In this document: positions 4,342-13,395 of the stretch, one piece after another
Numbering within the stretch: the first letter of the stretch is position 1
Layout: every line of letters starts with the position of its first letter
From: Desulfuromonadaceae bacterium
GTDB lineage: Bacteria > Desulfobacterota > Desulfuromonadia > Desulfuromonadales > Geopsychrobacteraceae
DNA: 13,586 nt
Assembly: GCA_013138655.1 (NCBI GenBank)
Contig: WTCI01000326.1
Span: 1-13,586, forward strand
Direction: 5' to 3'
Program-made: the position numbers and the translations under genes
Notes under the pieces: model-generated
What the model saw: the letters and a program-made list of their open reading frames with translations, nothing else
The model's database searches: none
What the model was told of the DNA's origin: nothing

Positions 4342-4392
4342 AAAACTCCATCGTGTCCATCCAGAAACTTCGGATGAACACGATGGAGTTTT
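4342..4392 (-). terminator. Strong hairpin terminator of the ATPase operon
   Basis: Fifteen bases (4342-4356, AAAACTCCATCGTGT) pair perfectly with 4378-4392. An inner CATCC/GGATG stem (4358-4362 with 4372-4376) closes around AGAAACTTC. Each strand ends in TTTT, so it can work in both directions. It touches the stop codon of the ATPase gene at 4392. Relatives of this hairpin occur at 10277-10305 and 12884-12914. Confidence 0.85.
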
Positions 4393-5255
4393 CAGGAATG
4401 GGGGAATAGTTTCTCGCAGAGATTCTCAATCACCGGTCGATAGGCCGGTAGATCAAGCAGGGTTTCCCTGCGGGATAATGACCGTGGGATTTCCATGTCG
4501 AAGGGGATGCGGGCGACGATTTCACCGCCATTTTCAGCGACGACGGTTTCAATCCGTTTGCCCAGTTCCGGGTCGATCCCGGTTTTGTTGATCAGCACCA
4601 GGTGCGGAATGCGGAAACTCTCCATCAGTTTTGCCAGCCGCCGGTAGTCGGACAGGCCACTCAGGCTTTCTTCCAGAACGGCCAGCACCATGTCCACGCC
4701 GGTAAGGCTGGAGATGGCCTGGCAACTGGTGCCGGGAGGACCGTCGATGAGAATGAGATCCAGACTTTTTTCTGTGGCAACCGTTCTTGCTTGTTTGCGG
4801 ATACTGGCGATCAGCTTGCCGCTGTTGTCCTCTCCCGGGATCAGATCGGCATGCAGCAGAAAGCCGTTTTCAAGTTGACTGAGATATTTTGTTCCGGAAC
4901 AATGCGGCACCATGCTGATACATTTTTCCGGACAGACCCAGGCGCAAGCGGCACAGCCTTCGCATTCGTCATTGACGGAATAGTTTCCCTGCTCATCGAG
5001 ATCTATGGCGTTAAAAGCGCAGATTTCCGCACAGCGGCCGCATCGCGTGCAGCTTTCAGTGTCAATGTGTGCGACATCCATCGCATAGTAGCTGCTTTCC
5101 GAGAGTTTTTGCAGAGTTAATAAAATCGGTAAATTTGAGGCGTTGACATCGCCATCGACGGCGACGACCTCGGGGAGCAATTTGAGCAGGGCGGCGGTGA
5201 CGGAGGTTTTTCCTGCCCCGCCTTTACCGCTCATGACGGCAATCTGTCGGATCAT
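4392..5255 (-). CDS. MinD-type P-loop ATPase with inserted 2[4Fe-4S] ferredoxin domain (second copy)
   Basis: A 287-aa soluble ATPase of the MinD/Mrp/NifH superfamily. The deviant Walker A is GKGGAGKT (about residues 10-17) and the switch II strand is LILIDGPPGTSC (about 167-178). Between them sits a ferredoxin domain with two complete CxxCxxCxxxC motifs (Cys 69/72/75/79 and 98/101/104/108) plus an extra Cys at 112. The start ATG overlaps the stop of the upstream paralogue by four bases (ATGA), so the two are translationally coupled. Proteins of this build are paired with NifX-fold partners in many anaerobes and belong to the ORP complex of Desulfovibrio. Iron-sulfur or metal-cluster handling driven by ATP is the likely role, inferred from family and context. 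Last gene of the operon; a hairpin terminator follows directly. Confidence 0.9.
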   Translation of the reverse strand: MIRQIAVMSGKGGAGKTSVTAALLKLLPEVVAVDGDVNASNLPILLTLQKLSESSYYAMDVAHIDTESCTRCGRCAEICAFNAIDLDEQGNYSVNDECEGCAACAWVCPEKCISMVPHCSGTKYLSQLENGFLLHADLIPGEDNSGKLIASIRKQARTVATEKSLDLILIDGPPGTSCQAISSLTGVDMVLAVLEESLSGLSDYRRLAKLMESFRIPHLVLINKTGIDPELGKRIETVVAENGGEIVARIPFDMEIPRSLSRRETLLDLPAYRPVIENLCEKLFPHS

Positions 5256-6082
5256 GGTTTATCTATCTCCGCAGCAACTGCCTGTTGCAACAACCGGCAG
5301 ATTTGCTGATCACTCTGGCTGAGAATTTCACCGTTGAGCAGGGCCTTATGGTGTTCCGTCTTCAGGGGGATTGAAGCGGCCAACTTGAGACCGCGCTCTG
5401 CCAACACGGAAGTCAGTTGTTCATCACCCTGCGACTTGTTGGCAATGATCACCACTGATTTTTGTAAATCTTTCAGGATATCGAGCGTCTGCAGCATGTC
5501 GTGGATGCCGAACGGGGTCGGCTCGGCCACCAGCACAACCAGGTCGGCCGGTTTGATGGCGGCAACTGCGGCGCAGGAATTTCCCGGGGGCCCATCGATA
5601 ACTACCGTCCCCGGAGAATCGATCCGCTGAACGATATCCTGAATCAGGGCTGTGCCGCGGGTTGAGCCGATGTCCAAATCGCCAATAATTGTCCGGGCTC
5701 CGGTTTTGCCGGAATGACCGGTGCGTACCTTGCCGATACTTGCTTGTTTATAGCTGATGGCCCCTTCCGGACAGACCTCGCGGCAAAGATTGCAACTGTG
5801 GCACAGGGTTTCGGTCAAATAAATGTGGTTGGCAACCTTGTAGAGGGCATTGAAGCGGCACTCTTTGGTGCATACACCACAGGCGCTACAGAGTGACTCG
5901 TTGATTTCCGGCTGCTGTTGGGAAACCGCCCGGATTGTTTCATTCTCGGGTTGCAGAAAATACTCACCGTTGGGGGCATCGACATCCAGATCGTAATAAT
6001 CTGCCTGAAAAATGTGGGCAAGGGAGGTGGCGATGGTGGTTTTACCCGCACCACCCTTGCCGCTGACCACTGAGATAATCAA
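5252..6082 (-). CDS. MinD-type P-loop ATPase with inserted 2[4Fe-4S] ferredoxin domain (first copy)
   Basis: A 276-aa paralogue of the protein encoded just downstream. It begins MIISVVSGKGGAGKTT, with the deviant Walker A at residues 8-15. Two CxxCxxCxxxC clusters follow (Cys 65/68/71/75 and 94/97/100/104), and VVIDGPPGNSC (about 160-170) marks switch II. The start is a TTG at 6080-6082, only two bases after the upstream stop codon, with GGAG seven bases before it; no ATG is close enough to keep the Walker strand. The two ATPases differ clearly in the ferredoxin insert and C-terminus, so they probably act as a heterodimer, as proposed for paired ORP-type ATPases. Middle gene of the operon. 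Function in cluster loading or transfer is inferred. Confidence 0.9.
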   Translation of the reverse strand: MIISVVSGKGGAGKTTIATSLAHIFQADYYDLDVDAPNGEYFLQPENETIRAVSQQQPEINESLCSACGVCTKECRFNALYKVANHIYLTETLCHSCNLCREVCPEGAISYKQASIGKVRTGHSGKTGARTIIGDLDIGSTRGTALIQDIVQRIDSPGTVVIDGPPGNSCAAVAAIKPADLVVLVAEPTPFGIHDMLQTLDILKDLQKSVVIIANKSQGDEQLTSVLAERGLKLAASIPLKTEHHKALLNGEILSQSDQQICRLLQQAVAAEIDKP

Positions 6083-6084
6083 AA

Positions 6085-6843
6085 TCAGGCTCCGCCGCTG
6101 CAGACCTGGTCCTGACTGATCGGGCCGATCTGTCCTTGTAGATAGGCATCTATCGTTTCCTGAACGGTGTGGCCGTGCCCCGAATAGACTTCAATACCCT
6201 CTTGCTGGAAACCCATCAGGGGACGACCGCCGATGCCGGCGACGACCACCTTGTTAACATCCCAGCCCTTGAGCAGGGCGACTGGTACAGAACATCCGCC
6301 GACAACATGGCCCCCGTTTTCCATCGACTGGACAGCTATGACCTTGTCATTGACAATATCAACCAGCGTGTAGAAAGCGCACTTGCCGAAATGCCCGGAG
6401 CGGATTGAATTGAGCCCATCCTCGCTATCCGAAGGAATAGCAACGCGGACAGCCTCTGCGGCAACAGCTTCTGCCAGGGGAATTTCTACATCAGTTTGTG
6501 CACTATTCTGAGCATTGGCAACCAGGGTGCCATGCAGGGCTCGACTCAAGACCTCTTCAACAGTTCCGGTGGCCTCCTCGACATAGCGGATACCGGCTTT
6601 TTCCAGGGCATCAGAGGCCTTGGGGCCGACCCTCCCGGTGTAAACAACCTCAACCTTCTGTTCGGACATCAATTGGGCGGCGCCGGTTCCGGCACCGTTG
6701 CTCGCATTGACGCCTTCCTTGTTGTCGAAAGCGTAAACTTCCATGGTTTCGCTGTTGGCGATCATGAAAAACGGGGCCCGGCCGAAATGGGAATCAACCG
6801 GCGAGTCCATGCGCCCTTCTTGAGCGGTGACTGCAATAATCAT
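6085..6843 (-). CDS. Two-domain NifX/NifB-fold (dinitrogenase Fe-Mo cofactor family) protein, ORP-like
   Basis: A 252-aa cytoplasmic protein made of two copies of the NifX/NafY/NifB C-terminal fold. Copy one covers about residues 1-105 and copy two about 132-238, joined by an Ala-rich linker. Each copy has the family HFG motif (HFGRAPFF at 19-26 and HFGKCAFY at 151-158). Copy two also has GGHVVGGCSVP (177-187) and AGIGGRP (202-208), typical metal-cluster-binding loops; copy one lacks a comparable Cys. The C-terminus ends in CSGGA. The family binds iron, molybdenum or mixed-metal clusters, and the Desulfovibrio orange protein is a related single-domain member. It is the first gene of a three-gene operon with two ferredoxin ATPases. 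AGGAG sits six bases before the ATG. No nif structural genes are visible, so a role outside nitrogen fixation is likely. Confidence 0.88.
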   Translation of the reverse strand: MIIAVTAQEGRMDSPVDSHFGRAPFFMIANSETMEVYAFDNKEGVNASNGAGTGAAQLMSEQKVEVVYTGRVGPKASDALEKAGIRYVEEATGTVEEVLSRALHGTLVANAQNSAQTDVEIPLAEAVAAEAVRVAIPSDSEDGLNSIRSGHFGKCAFYTLVDIVNDKVIAVQSMENGGHVVGGCSVPVALLKGWDVNKVVVAGIGGRPLMGFQQEGIEVYSGHGHTVQETIDAYLQGQIGPISQDQVCSGGA

Positions 6844-8819: not shown

Positions 8820-8907
8820 GGAGAGGTGTCCGAGAGGCCGAAGGTGACAGACTCGAAATCTGTTGTGGCGCAAGCCACCGGGAGTTCGAATCTCCCCCTC
8901 TCCGCCA
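8820..8907 (+). tRNA. tRNA-Ser (anticodon CGA)
   Basis: An 88-nt class II tRNA. The acceptor arms GGAGAGG (8820-8826) and CCTCTCC (8897-8903) pair perfectly, followed by discriminator G and an encoded CCA (8905-8907). The anticodon stem ACAGA/TCTGT closes the loop CTCGAAA, with anticodon CGA at 8854-8856, reading UCG serine codons. A long variable arm (GTGG...CCAC around 8865-8878) is expected for tRNA-Ser. The T-arm has GGGAG-TTCGAAT-CTCCC. Confidence 0.97.
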
Positions 8908-9164: not shown

Positions 9165-9180
9165 CGGCACTTCAGTGCCG
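9165..9180 (+). promoter_or_regulatory. Hairpin overlapping the annotated start of the activator gene
   Basis: CGGCACT (9165-9171) and AGTGCCG (9174-9180) form a perfect 7-bp inverted repeat with a 2-nt centre, and the second arm contains the GTG start codon. It could be an operator for self-repression, or a hairpin hiding the start. No Shine-Dalgarno sequence is visible before this GTG, so translation may begin instead at the ATG at 9205 or 9220. Confidence 0.45.
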
Positions 9181-10263
9181 AATAATTTACTCGAACAGTA
9201 TAGAATGGACTTCATACGTATGACCGCTAACAGTGGATTCGGGGGAATGATCGGGCGCTCACCGCAGATGCTGGAACTTTTTGAGTTGATCTCCTGTGTC
9301 GCTGAAGATGGTGAAAGTACGATTCTGATCCAGGGTGAAAGCGGAACGGGGAAGGAATTGATCGCCCGGGCGATTCATGAAAACAGCCCGAGAAAAAGTG
9401 GGCATTTTGTTCCGGTCAATTGCGCGGCGATTCCTGATGAGCTATTGGAAAGTGAACTCTTCGGTTACGTCAAAGGGGCATTTACCGGGGCGCAGCAATC
9501 GAAAATCGGCCGGGTGCAGTTTGCCGAGGGTGGAACTCTTTTTCTTGATGAAATCGGTGATATGAAGCCGGCTTTACAGGCAAAACTGCTGCGGGTGTTG
9601 CAGGAGCGAGAGGTGGAACAGGTTGGTGCTGTGCGGGCGACGAAGGTTGATGTCCGCGTGATTGCTGCCACTCATCAGGATTTGGAACAGCAGGTCGCTG
9701 AAGGGTGGTTCCGGGAGGATTTATATTACCGGTTGGCGGTGATTCCACTGAATGCCCCGCCGTTGCGGGAGCGTAAAGGTGACATTCCGATCCTGATTGG
9801 TAAATTTATTGAACAGTTCAATCGCCGTAAAAGTGATCGTCCTACAACCCTTGATCCCATGAGCGTGCGGAGTTTACAGGGATATTCTTGGCCGGGGAAC
9901 GTCAGGGAACTGGAAAATTTAATCCAGCGGCTGGTGATTTTGCACCGGGGCAAATGTGTCACCCTGAAAGAACTGCCGGAGAAGTATCGTTGCGAGGTGC
10001 CTGATGAGCCGGTGGTTGAGGAACTCCCGGGAAATGAAGTCACCACGGCAGGCAGCACAGTTGTGGCGGCCTCTCCACCGCCCGAGGTGATTTGGTCTGA
10101 TGAAGGTCTTGATTTTAACGGTTTGATCAGTGAATTTGAAGATCGTTTGATTCTGCAGGCTTTGCATCGTACCGGTGGGAACAAGAAGGAAGCTGCCCGT
10201 TTGCTCAACCTGAAGCGGACAACCTTGATAGAAAAAATCAAAAAGAAAAATTTACCGGTTTGA
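9175..10263 (+). CDS. Sigma-54-dependent transcriptional activator without receiver domain, FleQ/FlrA-like end
   Basis: This protein remodels sigma-54 RNA polymerase with ATP. The AAA+ domain starts almost at once (GGMIGRSP, 23-30). It has Walker A GESGTGKE (54-61), the sigma-54-contacting loop GAFTGA (101-106), Walker B GGTLFLDE (119-126) and [14 protein letters not shown] sequence ([12 protein letters not shown]). A Fis-type helix-turn-helix closes the protein (about 325-360), ending [19 protein letters not shown], which resembles the RTTLVEK signature of FleQ/FlrA flagellar regulators. There is no receiver, GAF or PAS domain; 362 aa is close to the PspF layout. Activity is therefore probably set by its level or by a partner protein. 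GTG at 9175 is the longest start in this frame but lacks a ribosome binding site; ATG 9205 or 9220 are alternatives that leave the AAA+ domain intact. The gene is convergent with the chemotaxis-type operon, and a motility role is inferred. Confidence 0.9.
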
Positions 10264-10327: not shown

Positions 10328-12181
10328 CTAGCCGGCTTTGCGGAAATGCCGGTTAAGCTTTTGCTGAATCTCGTCCCCGGATGCCGGCAGAATGAGGATA
10401 TCGCGTGCCCCGTATTTCACCGCTCGAAGGACCGTGGAGCGGGTCCATTCCGGCCCGGCAAAGATCATCGGCGGCAGCGGCTGTCCGGTTGATTGCAGTT
10501 TGATCGCTGTGGCGAATCCCTTCTCGCTGACCTGTGACATGACCAAGAAGGCTCCGAGAATCTGGTGTTTTTGGAACTGTTCCTTGATATCTTCTTGGAA
10601 AGACAGCACTTTACAGTCGTAGTCAGCTGTCGAGAGGATTTCTGAAAAGGGTTCCGCGTCCCCTGAATCTTCTGAAATGACCAGTACGATCGGCGGTCCG
10701 GCCGGCACGGCGGGAGCCTCCGTGGTTCGGGCTTTTTCATCACTATCAGCGGCGACAGGTTCTGTCGATGTCTCTCCTGCTGATCCCCCTGCTGCTGTCA
10801 CCGCCGTCGCTGGAGTTGTCTCCTGTGCCCGGGAGCTCGTCTGATCTGCCGCCGCCTGCTCATGTCCGTCCAGGTCGAAAATTTCGGCAGGGAAAAGCAA
10901 TAGGATCCTGTGCAGTTCATGTTCTTCGAGATGTATGGCAAAAGACGCCAGGTAGTAGCTGCCTTCCGGGAAAGGGGTGTCAGAGGTTGGGTCGATCTTG
11001 GTCGGAACGATGATTTCAGATTCAGTTCTGACAAAACGGATCTGTTGCGAATAACGATCAAGAAAAACCTGGGTCAGGCCTCCGGCCAGGATGTTGGCAA
11101 CTTCTCCAAAGGCATCTTCAATTTCCCCATCCAGCAGTCCCTGTGAACTTTGTTCTTCAATCTGGTCCTCGGGCAGCATAATCAGGGTTCCGCCGAGAAC
11201 CACGGCATCAGGAATCTGCGTGAACATGAAGCCAAGACCTTCACGATCCCCGGAAATCTTCAAGTGGGCCATGGTGACTTTTTCCATGCAATGATTGGAG
11301 AAAAAGTCACTTTTGGTCGTCAGCAAAAGCTGGATGTCGTCGCAAACCAGATCTTTTCCGAGCAGGGCACCGATTTCTTCTCCGAGCTGGTTGATCGTTG
11401 CGGTAAAAACGACATCTGTCAATTTTTTGGCATCGGCAAATGCCGGTTTGGGTGGCGGGGGGGGCTCGCTCTCTTCTGCGGGTGCCGGTTCTGCGGCGCC
11501 GGCAGGCTCGGACCTTGGCTCGGGTGTCGGTTCCGCAATAGTTTCTGCGGCTTTTGGCTCCTGTTGCGCGGGAGTTTCCGCAATTTCCGGAGGTTCTTCC
11601 GGGGCGGCGTCTTCAAGTTCAAAAATGCTTGCCGGAACAACGAATTCAAGGAGACCGAGGTTTTTCTCAGCGGTACTCAGGATGCAGCTGGCAACGTAGT
11701 AATTGCCGGGAGGAAAAGGTTGGTCGCTGGCCGGATCAATTTTGGTCGGCACCAGTTCTTCAACGGTTTCTTTGATAAAACGGAGTGTTTTTGAATATTT
11801 ATCAACAAAGGCTTGGGTGAAGACCCCGGCAATGATATTTGCCACCTCACCGAAGGCGTCGCTCAGCTCGCCATCGAGCTTGCCGCCCTGAGCGTTCTCT
11901 TCGATCATCTCCTCCGGCAGCATGATCAGGGTGCCGCCGAGAATAATGGCCGAATCGAGTCTGGTCAGCAGGTAGCAAGCCCCCTCTTTGTCGCCACTGA
12001 CCGACATCCGAGTGAACGCGGTTTTTTCCCGCCCGGGATCGCTGAAGAGGGTGTCTTTAGACGAGAGGAGAAATTGAATATCGCTACAGGTCAACTCCTG
12101 CCCGAGAAGAGCACCAATTTCTGTCGCTAGATTTTTGATGCCCGCTTTGCAGATGACATCAATGATGGCCCGTTGATCCAA
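10328..12181 (-). CDS. Tandem CheC/CheX-like protein with C-terminal pseudo-receiver
   Basis: A 617-aa cytoplasmic protein with an internal duplication. Domain one covers about residues 1-190 and domain two about 250-438, offset by 246-248 residues. Each contains GALLGxxLxCxDIQxLL, LGGTLIMLPE and the CheC/CheX-type active-site pattern D-x3-E-x2-N (D108/E112/N115 and D356/E360/N363, both as DAFGEVAN). In known CheC and CheX proteins the Glu and Asn dephosphorylate CheY-P. The domains are joined by a Pro/Ala/Glu-rich linker (about 191-248), and a second flexible linker (about 439-495) leads to a receiver-like fold (496-612). In the receiver the phospho-Asp position reads FLVMSQVSE and the Lys position reads ILILPAS, so it cannot be phosphorylated normally. 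Start is TTG at 12181 with GAGGG four bases upstream. It is last in an operon after two CheX genes. Phosphatase activity is inferred. Confidence 0.85.
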   Translation of the reverse strand: MDQRAIIDVICKAGIKNLATEIGALLGQELTCSDIQFLLSSKDTLFSDPGREKTAFTRMSVSGDKEGACYLLTRLDSAIILGGTLIMLPEEMIEENAQGGKLDGELSDAFGEVANIIAGVFTQAFVDKYSKTLRFIKETVEELVPTKIDPASDQPFPPGNYYVASCILSTAEKNLGLLEFVVPASIFELEDAAPEEPPEIAETPAQQEPKAAETIAEPTPEPRSEPAGAAEPAPAEESEPPPPPKPAFADAKKLTDVVFTATINQLGEEIGALLGKDLVCDDIQLLLTTKSDFFSNHCMEKVTMAHLKISGDREGLGFMFTQIPDAVVLGGTLIMLPEDQIEEQSSQGLLDGEIEDAFGEVANILAGGLTQVFLDRYSQQIRFVRTESEIIVPTKIDPTSDTPFPEGSYYLASFAIHLEEHELHRILLLFPAEIFDLDGHEQAAADQTSSRAQETTPATAVTAAGGSAGETSTEPVAADSDEKARTTEAPAVPAGPPIVLVISEDSGDAEPFSEILSTADYDCKVLSFQEDIKEQFQKHQILGAFLVMSQVSEKGFATAIKLQSTGQPLPPMIFAGPEWTRSTVLRAVKYGARDILILPASGDEIQQKLNRHFRKAG

Positions 12182-12238: not shown

Positions 12239-12697
12239 CTAGTTGAGATTGTATTTCATCTCGACGAAGAAACGACCCTGCTCAAGGTCGAAGGGGATTA
12301 TAACCCGATTACTTTTGGTTGGGGAAGATACGGTATAGGACTTCCCCGAAACTGTTGTCGGAATCGATAATTCGAGACGGACATTTTCTGCCGCAAAAGC
12401 TTGTTTTATCCCCCCGGCAACCATGTTGGCAATTTCACCGAGGGTATCTTTGACATCTTCATCAACTTCTTCAATATCCATGCCAAGCATTTCGCCGGTA
12501 ATGGCCATCCCGACGGTGCCGGGACAATGGATGGCAAGCATGCCGACAAAATCTCCAGTCAGACCGATCATTGCCGAGATATGGCAATCGAGAACCTCTT
12601 TTCCCTCTGTCAACGGGTTCCCTGCGGAGATCTCCATGAAAATCATGGTGTTAAAGATCTCCTCGGTTGATTTAATGATTTTTTTAGCAAATTCCAC
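12239..12697 (-). CDS. cheX: CheX-family chemotaxis phosphatase-like protein (copy 2)
   Basis: This 152-aa CheX-fold protein probably removes phosphate from a CheY-like response regulator. The active-site pattern D-x3-E-x2-N is D84/E88/N91 in DTLGEIAN, and SAMIGLTGDFVGML (41-54) is the family's SxxIGLxG region. The reading frame is open to an ATG at 12883, but I place the start at GTG 12697 for three reasons. A GGGA sequence lies six bases before it. The product then aligns from end to end without a gap to the 152-aa paralogue at 12937-13395. The upstream 186 bases belong to a palindromic repeat. The two paralogues share the same length and the same active site but differ at about half of positions. 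It lies between the other CheX gene and the tandem CheC-like gene. Confidence 0.85.
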   Translation of the reverse strand: MEFAKKIIKSTEEIFNTMIFMEISAGNPLTEGKEVLDCHISAMIGLTGDFVGMLAIHCPGTVGMAITGEMLGMDIEEVDEDVKDTLGEIANMVAGGIKQAFAAENVRLELSIPTTVSGKSYTVSSPTKSNRVIIPFDLEQGRFFVEMKYNLN

Positions 12698-12732
12698 AAT
12701 AAATCCCACGGGGTATAACCGGGTGAAAAAAG

Positions 12733-12885
12733 AGTTAGTTTTAATCCGAAAACGGCCCTTTCCCGTGATCTCGGAGTCAATCAGCATGCTCACTTGTGCG
12801 GCGTACCTATGTACGCCTCCGCGTAAATGTTTGATCTTCTTGATCTCACGAGAAATTGCTCGTTTCCCATATGAAAACTTCATCG
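12733..12885. repeat. 153-bp imperfect palindromic repeat element inside the operon
   Basis: The centre is a perfect GGCGTAC-CTAT-GTACGCC (12800-12817). Both arms then match outward with scattered mismatches. The left arm, read 5'-3', has AGTTTTAAT, GAAAACGGCCCTTTC and CGTGA in the same order as AGTTTTCAT, GGAAACGAGCAATTTC and CGTGA in the reverse complement of the right arm. The ends are about 75 bp either side of the centre (12808). It is read through on the minus strand as a spurious N-terminal extension of the CheX gene at 12239-12697. It is an intergenic mobile-type palindrome in build, like the element at 8055-8233 but of different sequence. Confidence 0.65.
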
Positions 12886-12936: not shown

Positions 12937-13395
12937 TCAGTTCTGACCGATTTGCAGTTCAACCAGGAAGGTTTCCCCTTCGAGTGCAAAAGGAACTGTG
13001 ATGTTTTCGGCATCGGCCAGGCAGTCAATCGAGTATTCTTCACCGTGGATCGCCGAGGGCATCGACAGTTTGATATCGCTCCCTTTCGGGTCGAGGGCAA
13101 ACTTCAGGCTGCCGCCCAACATATTGGCCAGTTCCCCGATGGCATCACAAACGTCTTCGTCAATCTCTTCGACATCCATCCCGAGAAAAGCCGTGGTGAC
13201 AGCCAATGCGACCGGCTTCGGCAGATGGATGGCCAGTAGGCCTTTGGTCGTTCCGGCCAAACCGATAATGCCGGAAATACTGTCCTGCAGCATTTCTCTT
13301 CCGCGGCTGAAGGGTTCCCCGGGGGTGACATCCAGCATGATCATACTGGAGAAAATTTCTTGGGTCGAGTGAATGATATGTTGTGCGTGATCCAC
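12937..13395 (-). CDS. cheX: CheX-family chemotaxis phosphatase-like protein (copy 1)
   Basis: A 152-aa cytoplasmic protein of the CheX family, expected to dephosphorylate a CheY-like receiver. The active-site pattern is D84/E88/N91 in DAIGELANMLGG, preceded by EEIDEDVC (76-83). SISGIIGLAGTTKGLLAI (39-56) is the family core strand-helix region, and the C-terminus ends in a beta-rich LVELQIGQN. The start is GTG at 13395, six bases after a clear AAGGAG; VDHAQHIIHSTQEIF aligns with VEFAKKIIKSTEEIF of the second copy. The gene follows a CheY-like receiver gene on the same strand, the natural substrate. Between the two lies a perfect 16-bp hairpin immediately upstream of the ribosome binding site. 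Confidence 0.9.
   Translation of the reverse strand: MDHAQHIIHSTQEIFSSMIMLDVTPGEPFSRGREMLQDSISGIIGLAGTTKGLLAIHLPKPVALAVTTAFLGMDVEEIDEDVCDAIGELANMLGGSLKFALDPKGSDIKLSMPSAIHGEEYSIDCLADAENITVPFALEGETFLVELQIGQN

Follow-up and report, generated by a model that had tools for sequence, protein, structure and literature searches.

In a window of 13,586 nucleotides, the whole stretch of Desulfuromonadaceae DNA that was analysed (contig WTCI01000326.1), we found an ORF of 617 residues (10328..12181, minus strand) composed of two CheC/CheX-fold domains, called heads here, and a C-terminal receiver fold. The protein may well, with about even odds in our judgement, be a multi-headed CheY-P phosphatase that is anchored by a phosphorylation-blind receiver and works in flagellum-linked chemotaxis. 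How bacteria that lack CheZ dispose of CheY-P is understood for few species. Here a conserved putative phosphatase shares one chain with a dead receiver that is conserved too, and nature offers versions of one, two and three heads, some of them in named isolates, so that a docking role of a pseudo-receiver and the effect of phosphatase valency are directly testable.

The three-domain make-up given by the initial annotation was right, as judged by AlphaFold2 modelling and fold search (Table 1). Its internal duplication with an intact D-x3-E-x2-N site per half was also confirmed, the two heads being 50% identical without gaps and carrying one site apiece. The Pro/Ala/Glu linkers that it placed between the domains showed low pLDDT and low identity; the model had disordered linkers and a pTM of 0.46. 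Mean pairwise identity over 55 rows was 0.64 and 0.63 for the heads and 0.63 for the receiver, with 0.27 for linker 1 and 0.21 for linker 2. The receiver is thus conserved as strongly as the heads (0.63 vs 0.63-0.64) despite the loss of its chemistry.

Table 1. Features of the 617-aa protein and of its gene neighbourhood in the window
Feature	Position	Strand	Remark
617-aa protein: two CheC/FliY/FliM-fold heads and C-terminal pseudo-receiver	10328..12181	-	
Head 1, residues 2-190, CheC/CheX-type phosphatase fold (predicted)	11612..12178	-	
Head 1 site D108-x3-E112-x2-N115	11837..11860	-	invariant in alignment A3
Pro/Ala/Glu linker 1, residues 191-247	11441..11611	-	pLDDT mostly <50
Head 2, residues 249-438, fold as head 1	10868..11437	-	
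Head 2 site D356-x3-E360-x2-N363	11093..11116	-	invariant in alignment A3
Linker 2, residues 439-495	10697..10867	-	pLDDT <50 for residues 445-489
Pseudo-receiver, residues 496-617; phospho-Asp, Thr and Lys lost	10331..10696	-	
W579-T580-R581	10439..10447	-	W and T invariant; R in 48/49 diverse receivers
Stand-alone CheX, next gene upstream	12239..12883	-	PF13690, E 2.1e-26
Stand-alone CheX, second gene upstream	12937..13395	-	PF13690, E 2.3e-23
CheY, C-terminal end, KKP lysine present, cut at contig end	13476..13586	-	complete homologues in relatives
Convergent sigma-54-dependent regulator	9175..10263	+	

Through fold search with the AlphaFold2 model, the heads were matched to FliM, FliY, CheC and CheX. 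The earlier reading of the halves as CheC/CheX-like stands in part: residues 1-190 and 250-438 both gave a CheC/FliY/FliM-type fold, and CheX was less near. The Pfam family PF13690 (CheX) scored 33.1 bits in the 617-aa protein (cut-off 27), and among 17 diverse members profile matches at E 0.01 were obtained with CheX in 15 and with CheC in 7. The curated CheX equivalog NF041094 gave no match to the 617-aa protein at E 1; it matched the two neighbouring CheX genes at E 6.6e-15 and 4.4e-16, yet both stayed below its cut-off. Searching solved structures with the full-length sequence as query gave no match at E 1, and a diverse profile returned eight chains at E 0.1, mostly receivers together with two designed or Rossmann-type proteins, with no CheX among the eight.

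CheC proper has two catalytic sites in one domain. Each head of the 617-aa protein contains exactly one E-x2-N, and the protein differs from CheC and FliY in this single site per domain, in its two or three domains per chain, in the fused pseudo-receiver and in the absence of a SPOA (FliN-type) domain (Pfam scan, E 1). It resembles CheX in the Pfam match, in the single ExxN site and in the CheX genes directly upstream, but the heads are about 190 aa long, compared with 152 in a neighbouring CheX, and their predicted fold is closer to the FliM middle domain, FliY and CheC than to CheX. The catalytic Glu and Asn were both kept in 754 of 756 heads, a set drawn from 351 listed proteins and 41 loci that partly overlap (P0001 is the window protein), with L094-L113 left out. 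Outside this set, L100 (G149) had lost the pair in both heads (EIAK, EVAD) and kept the receiver. Since the head Glu and Asn are kept and the operon encodes intact CheYs, it is likely that the heads have phosphatase activity on CheY-P. We know of no phosphatase role for FliM, which shares the fold, and fold alone therefore does not imply activity.

A search for the same architecture revealed a family, with one to three heads before one C-terminal receiver, rather than a one-off fusion. Each protein search scored 8000 candidates and listed 120 of the matches; matches at E 0.001 numbered 683 in the first search, 699 in the profile search and 234 in the single-head search. Among the matches listed, two heads were present in 120/120 of P0001-P0120, three heads in 104 and two in seven of P0121-P0231, and one head in 119 and two in one of P0232-P0351. 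The 41 loci that were read comprised 28 with two heads and 13 with one, including L068, which is cut by the contig end. Single-head forms belong to the Geobacter type and some Desulfuromonadales, and the named three-head carriers among the matches listed are Desulfopila, Desulforhopalus and other Desulfobulbaceae or Desulfobacterales. Named isolates with members include Malonomonas rubra and Desulfuromonas acetoxidans.

At E 1e-10, matches were obtained in 27 of 395 genomes of the phylum, and these 27 belong to 19 of 246 genera. Twenty of these were heads plus a pseudo-receiver of the same type as in the 617-aa protein, three (L107-L109) had one head with a more distant degenerate receiver, and four (L110-L113) had one head, no receiver match and a C-terminus read as CBS domains, PF00571 being confirmed for L110 only. 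L110-L113 come from families f61 and f93 and keep the head Glu and Asn; a weak CheX-like match lies in a separate ORF just upstream in L110 and L112. A 94-97% identical copy was found under the title 'Chloroflexi bacterium' (L004, JADFVC010000225.1; L005, JADFVC010000199.1), and this title looks misassigned.

The receiver was initially described as lacking the phospho-Asp and the conserved Lys. Alignments, the AlphaFold2 model and fold search agree with this, and the Thr is missing too. The Lys position is occupied by L598 and the Thr position by G576, and the phospho-Asp position falls on V547 or M548 (strand end, one profile alignment) or on Q550 (gapped profile alignment), none of them Asp; neither the model nor the fold search aligned the domain with an intact phospho-Asp. 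A phosphorylatable response regulator requires phospho-Asp, Thr/Ser and Lys, and the domain falls instead among the aspartate-less or pseudo-receivers. Judging from these residues, the receiver of the 617-aa protein presumably cannot be phosphorylated in the usual way. A census of aspartate-less receivers reports that the acidic positions are rarely taken by Val, Ile, Leu or Met (PMC4395418). The Lys was replaced by M, T, I, L or V in 120/120 of P0001-P0120 and by T or V in 111/111 of P0121-P0231, and the Thr by G or A in all of both sets (120/120 and 111/111). P0232-P0351, mostly of the Geobacter type, kept the Lys in 103/120 and the acidic pair in most, with Thr changed to A in 120/120.

An HMM alignment put an Asp of the post-beta3 loop at the phosphorylation site in 109/120 of P0232-P0351 and 40/111 of P0121-P0231. 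We rejected this register because strand beta3 in the AlphaFold2 model of P0237 (Geobacter-type) ends at residue 276, before residue 278, and a gapless hand count places the Asp position at Gly275. Read in our register, the Asp is absent throughout the family. This model-based rejection is an argument and does not prove the point; should the HMM register be correct after all, the Asp, the acidic pocket and the Lys may all be present in the Geobacter type, with the Thr alone missing. On the same argument hangs the possibility that the Geobacter type is an intermediate, which may have lost the acceptor and the Thr and kept the rest. The window protein is unaffected by the register question. Profile-profile alignment against neighbouring CheYs gave probabilities of 14 (Desulfuromonadales), 7 (P0121-type) and 97 (Geobacter type); being weak outside the Geobacter type, it did not fix the phospho-Asp register.

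Conservation was scored in 49 of 61 receivers and compared with 25 CheYs of the same operons. I560, P571, W579, T580, V584, A587, G591 and P599 were invariant over the 49 diverse receivers, and R581, Y590, D594 and I595 nearly so. The alpha1-beta2-alpha2 part scored 0.30-0.36 (helix 1, 0.33), beta1, beta3, the beta3-alpha3 loop and alpha5 scored 0.49-0.54, and alpha3, beta4, alpha4 and beta5 with their loops scored 0.67-0.98, except the alpha3-beta4 loop with 0.48. In the neighbouring CheYs, a set taxonomically narrower and more conserved throughout (0.67-1.0), alpha1 scored 0.91, alpha4 0.77 and the active-site loops 0.78-1.0. The low scores on helix 1 and at the phosphorylation site and the high scores from alpha3 to beta5 indicate that conservation has shifted to one face. 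No Cys was found among the strongly conserved positions of the 49 receivers, and a redox-active Cys receiver, which we had considered, was dropped for this reason.

The gene of the 617-aa protein is the last of an operon in the order cheD-HDOD-cheY-cheX-cheY-cheX-cheX-617-aa gene. The window contig stops inside cheY, and the upstream order was read from relatives: 40 genomes were taken with wide flanks, and 11 were read further upstream. The identities of CheD, HDOD, Response_reg, CheX, CheA, FliG, MotB and CheB were checked with Pfam at one locus each. A gene of the CheX cluster lay immediately upstream in 39/41 loci, and all 39 carried the site. Within seven genes upstream on the same strand, the 41 loci contained at least two CheX in 37, CheY in 36, two CheY in 32, HDOD in 36 and CheD in 33. 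The CheYs of the operon are intact, with all five residues in 11/11 aligned. The 11 longer stretches all contained a CheA homologue (11/11), and a fliG-containing flagellar block was divergent to cheA in 8/11; L076, L077 and L084, of the window's family, had no flagellar block beside cheA in these stretches.

A homologue of the sigma-54-type regulator was located at most two genes downstream in 40/41 loci (33 convergent, seven on the same strand), and hence it may regulate the operon. The activator in the window (9175-10263, plus strand) has no recognised N-terminal sensory domain. Among 101 upstream members of the CheX cluster, 68 matched the narrow site pattern and 71 the looser one. About 30 of the 101 have no D-x3-E-x2-N[MIL] (for example L039:6034-6519 and L041:11168-11647); such CheX genes, seemingly placed mainly between the two cheYs, encode possible pseudo-phosphatases. 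The CheX ORF at 12239-12883 (minus strand) has an N-terminal extension of 62 residues that is missing from its 152-aa neighbour, so its true start is probably internal.

Presence of the gene was compared with fliM in 98 relatives: both were found in 58, the gene only in five, fliM only in two and neither in 33 (Fisher p 1.9e-18, with related genomes treated as independent). For the 54 genomes from other families of the order, the corresponding numbers were 30, 0, 0 and 24. The gene-positive set is 63 rather than 67 because weak receiver-only matches in G045, G049, G054 and G065 were counted as absent, and the 0/0 split at order level depends on this count. The gene occurred without a FliM match in G005, G006, G027, G032 and G038 (completeness 71-96%), and FliM without the gene in G007 and G026; the window's own genome (G000) carries FliM. 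CheZ was above the cut-off in 0/98 genomes, with sub-threshold matches in five. From the co-occurrence with FliM and the operon context, the 617-aa protein is very probably part of the flagellar chemotaxis system.

The number of heads seems to have changed repeatedly. A head tree was built from 86 of 107 heads, after removal of near-identical copies and of heads no longer than 110 aa. Both heads of the window's family fell in one clade (98/90), and separate clades were formed by the heads of f5 (99/99), f14 (95/92) and f19 (93/81, below star); P0121-type, f38 and f121 heads formed a further set. The first and second heads of family f18 were found in two separate clades and did not pair, and single-head forms were placed between two-head clades. 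A single ancient head duplication was rejected by the AU test (p-AU 1.9e-74 when first heads were forced into one clade; quick tree of 15 first and 15 second heads of Desulfuromonadales). The tree would fit either several duplications or homogenisation of copies within genes. The single head of L067 (G021) nests among second heads and so arose probably by loss; this one-head form resembles a recombinant of a first and a second head, and in the stretch examined its direct upstream neighbours are not the usual che genes. Heads 1 and 2 of the three-head P0121 are almost identical in the tree, suggesting a recent duplication or conversion.

Phosphatases of this family are described as working with an Asn that positions the water for attack and an acidic side chain that forms a pair with the lysine of the receiver (PMC3035606). 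Each head of the 617-aa protein would likewise insert its Asn, to orient the water, and its Glu, as a salt bridge to the lysine, into the active site of a CheY encoded in the same operon. The pseudo-receiver would serve as a CheY-shaped anchor with no phosphorylation cycling, docked constitutively through its alpha3-beta4-alpha4-beta5 face on a partner in the chemotaxis system or motor, with the kinase array, the motor switch or the pole as candidate places. Thanks to the disordered linkers, CheY-P around the anchor point would be within reach of one, two or three heads, and such multivalency agrees with a head number that changed repeatedly while the single receiver stayed. Docking is suggested by the conservation of that face, and we give this role about equal chances of being right or wrong. 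Going further, we might tentatively speculate that the phosphorylation-blind CheY mimic works as a label that brings a cluster of CheY-P phosphatases to the kinase array or motor switch and keeps them there, with the number of heads re-tuned repeatedly in evolution so as to adjust how fast the signal is removed locally.

Self-assembly, pseudosubstrate inhibition and sensing are weaker rivals to docking. The pseudo-receiver could be a constitutive dimerisation or oligomerisation domain that clusters the heads through alpha4-beta5 and has no separate partner. The conserved R581, K589, Y590 and D594 lie on alpha4-beta5 and would fit a homodimer; 15 pseudo-receiver structures are dimeric without phosphorylation, and the major regulator families pair on alpha4-beta5(-alpha5) (PMC12632262). 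However, alpha5 is conserved to only 0.49 and alpha3 to 0.67, and it is not clear why chains that already carry two or three heads should dimerise, so we consider this rather unlikely. The domain could also act as a pseudosubstrate, restraining the active site of a head until displaced by CheY-P or a partner, since heads of this kind naturally bind a receiver fold, and here one is tethered to them. This is quite improbable: the Lys that would partner the head Glu is retained in 0/231 of P0001-P0231 and survives mainly in the Geobacter type (103/120), and helix 1 is poorly conserved. The disordered linkers and the low pTM of the AlphaFold2 model give no sign of a fixed contact, though this is not decisive.

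The initial annotation had suggested that a double phosphatase-like protein with a pseudo-receiver could hold a partner in place or sense a signal without phosphorylation; holding fits the conservation pattern, whereas sensing lacks specific support. A receiver that senses a small molecule or the redox state and tunes the heads, as the CBS module might in the CBS-fused relatives, is very doubtful given that no Cys stands at strongly conserved receiver positions, even though L110-L113 join the same kind of head to a CBS-read module (confirmed in L110 only) and thereby suggest that the C-terminal module may be regulatory. It is most unlikely that the heads have no phosphatase role and that the protein belongs to the motor as a structural or adaptor component resembling FliM, as the Glu/Asn pair of the heads is almost always kept and the Pfam scan found no SPOA domain.

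Docking by a pseudo-receiver has a precedent in FrzS of Myxococcus, a protein that is not known to contain a phosphatase domain. FrzS binds SgmX through the alpha3-beta4-alpha4 face of its pseudo-receiver, a face for which a 2025 review is aware of no report in ordinary receivers, and differs in working on type IV pili at the pole; the mechanisms of pseudo-receivers are called a mystery in the same review (PMC12632262). The Leptospirae CheA-CheC/CheX fusions also join CheC/CheX to another chemotaxis module, which is a kinase there and a receiver here (PMC10542144). A Desulfuromonas Che cluster of 'unique type' (AOP6_0888-0878), located beside a flagellar cluster and containing cheX, cheC and cheD (PMC8235581), is probably of the same operon type, and its 'cheC' would then be a homologue of the gene of the 617-aa protein; the section of that paper on the Che cluster does not give the domain make-up of the 617-aa protein.

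The fusion had at first not been recognised as described. This holds for the open-licence literature in PubMed Central, where we found no description of a CheC/CheX-receiver fusion, but automatic database names such as 'phosphatase CheC / two-component response regulator' (P0006) pair both halves, so annotation pipelines had already caught it. The pseudo-receiver review names neither CheX nor CheC (PMC12632262), and in the aspartate-less census 'CheX' is absent and the matches shown for 'CheC' are the word 'check' (PMC4395418).

In the rest of the window, a DDE transposase fragment was found near the contig start (200-574, plus strand). In an apparent operon at 4392-6843 (minus strand), a pair of neighbouring MinD/ParA-type ATPases carrying 4Fe-4S motifs is accompanied by a Nitro_FeMo-Co protein with two stretches. 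A tRNA-Ser(CGA) (8820-8907, plus strand) directly follows a deaminase gene, which we take to be tadA-like.
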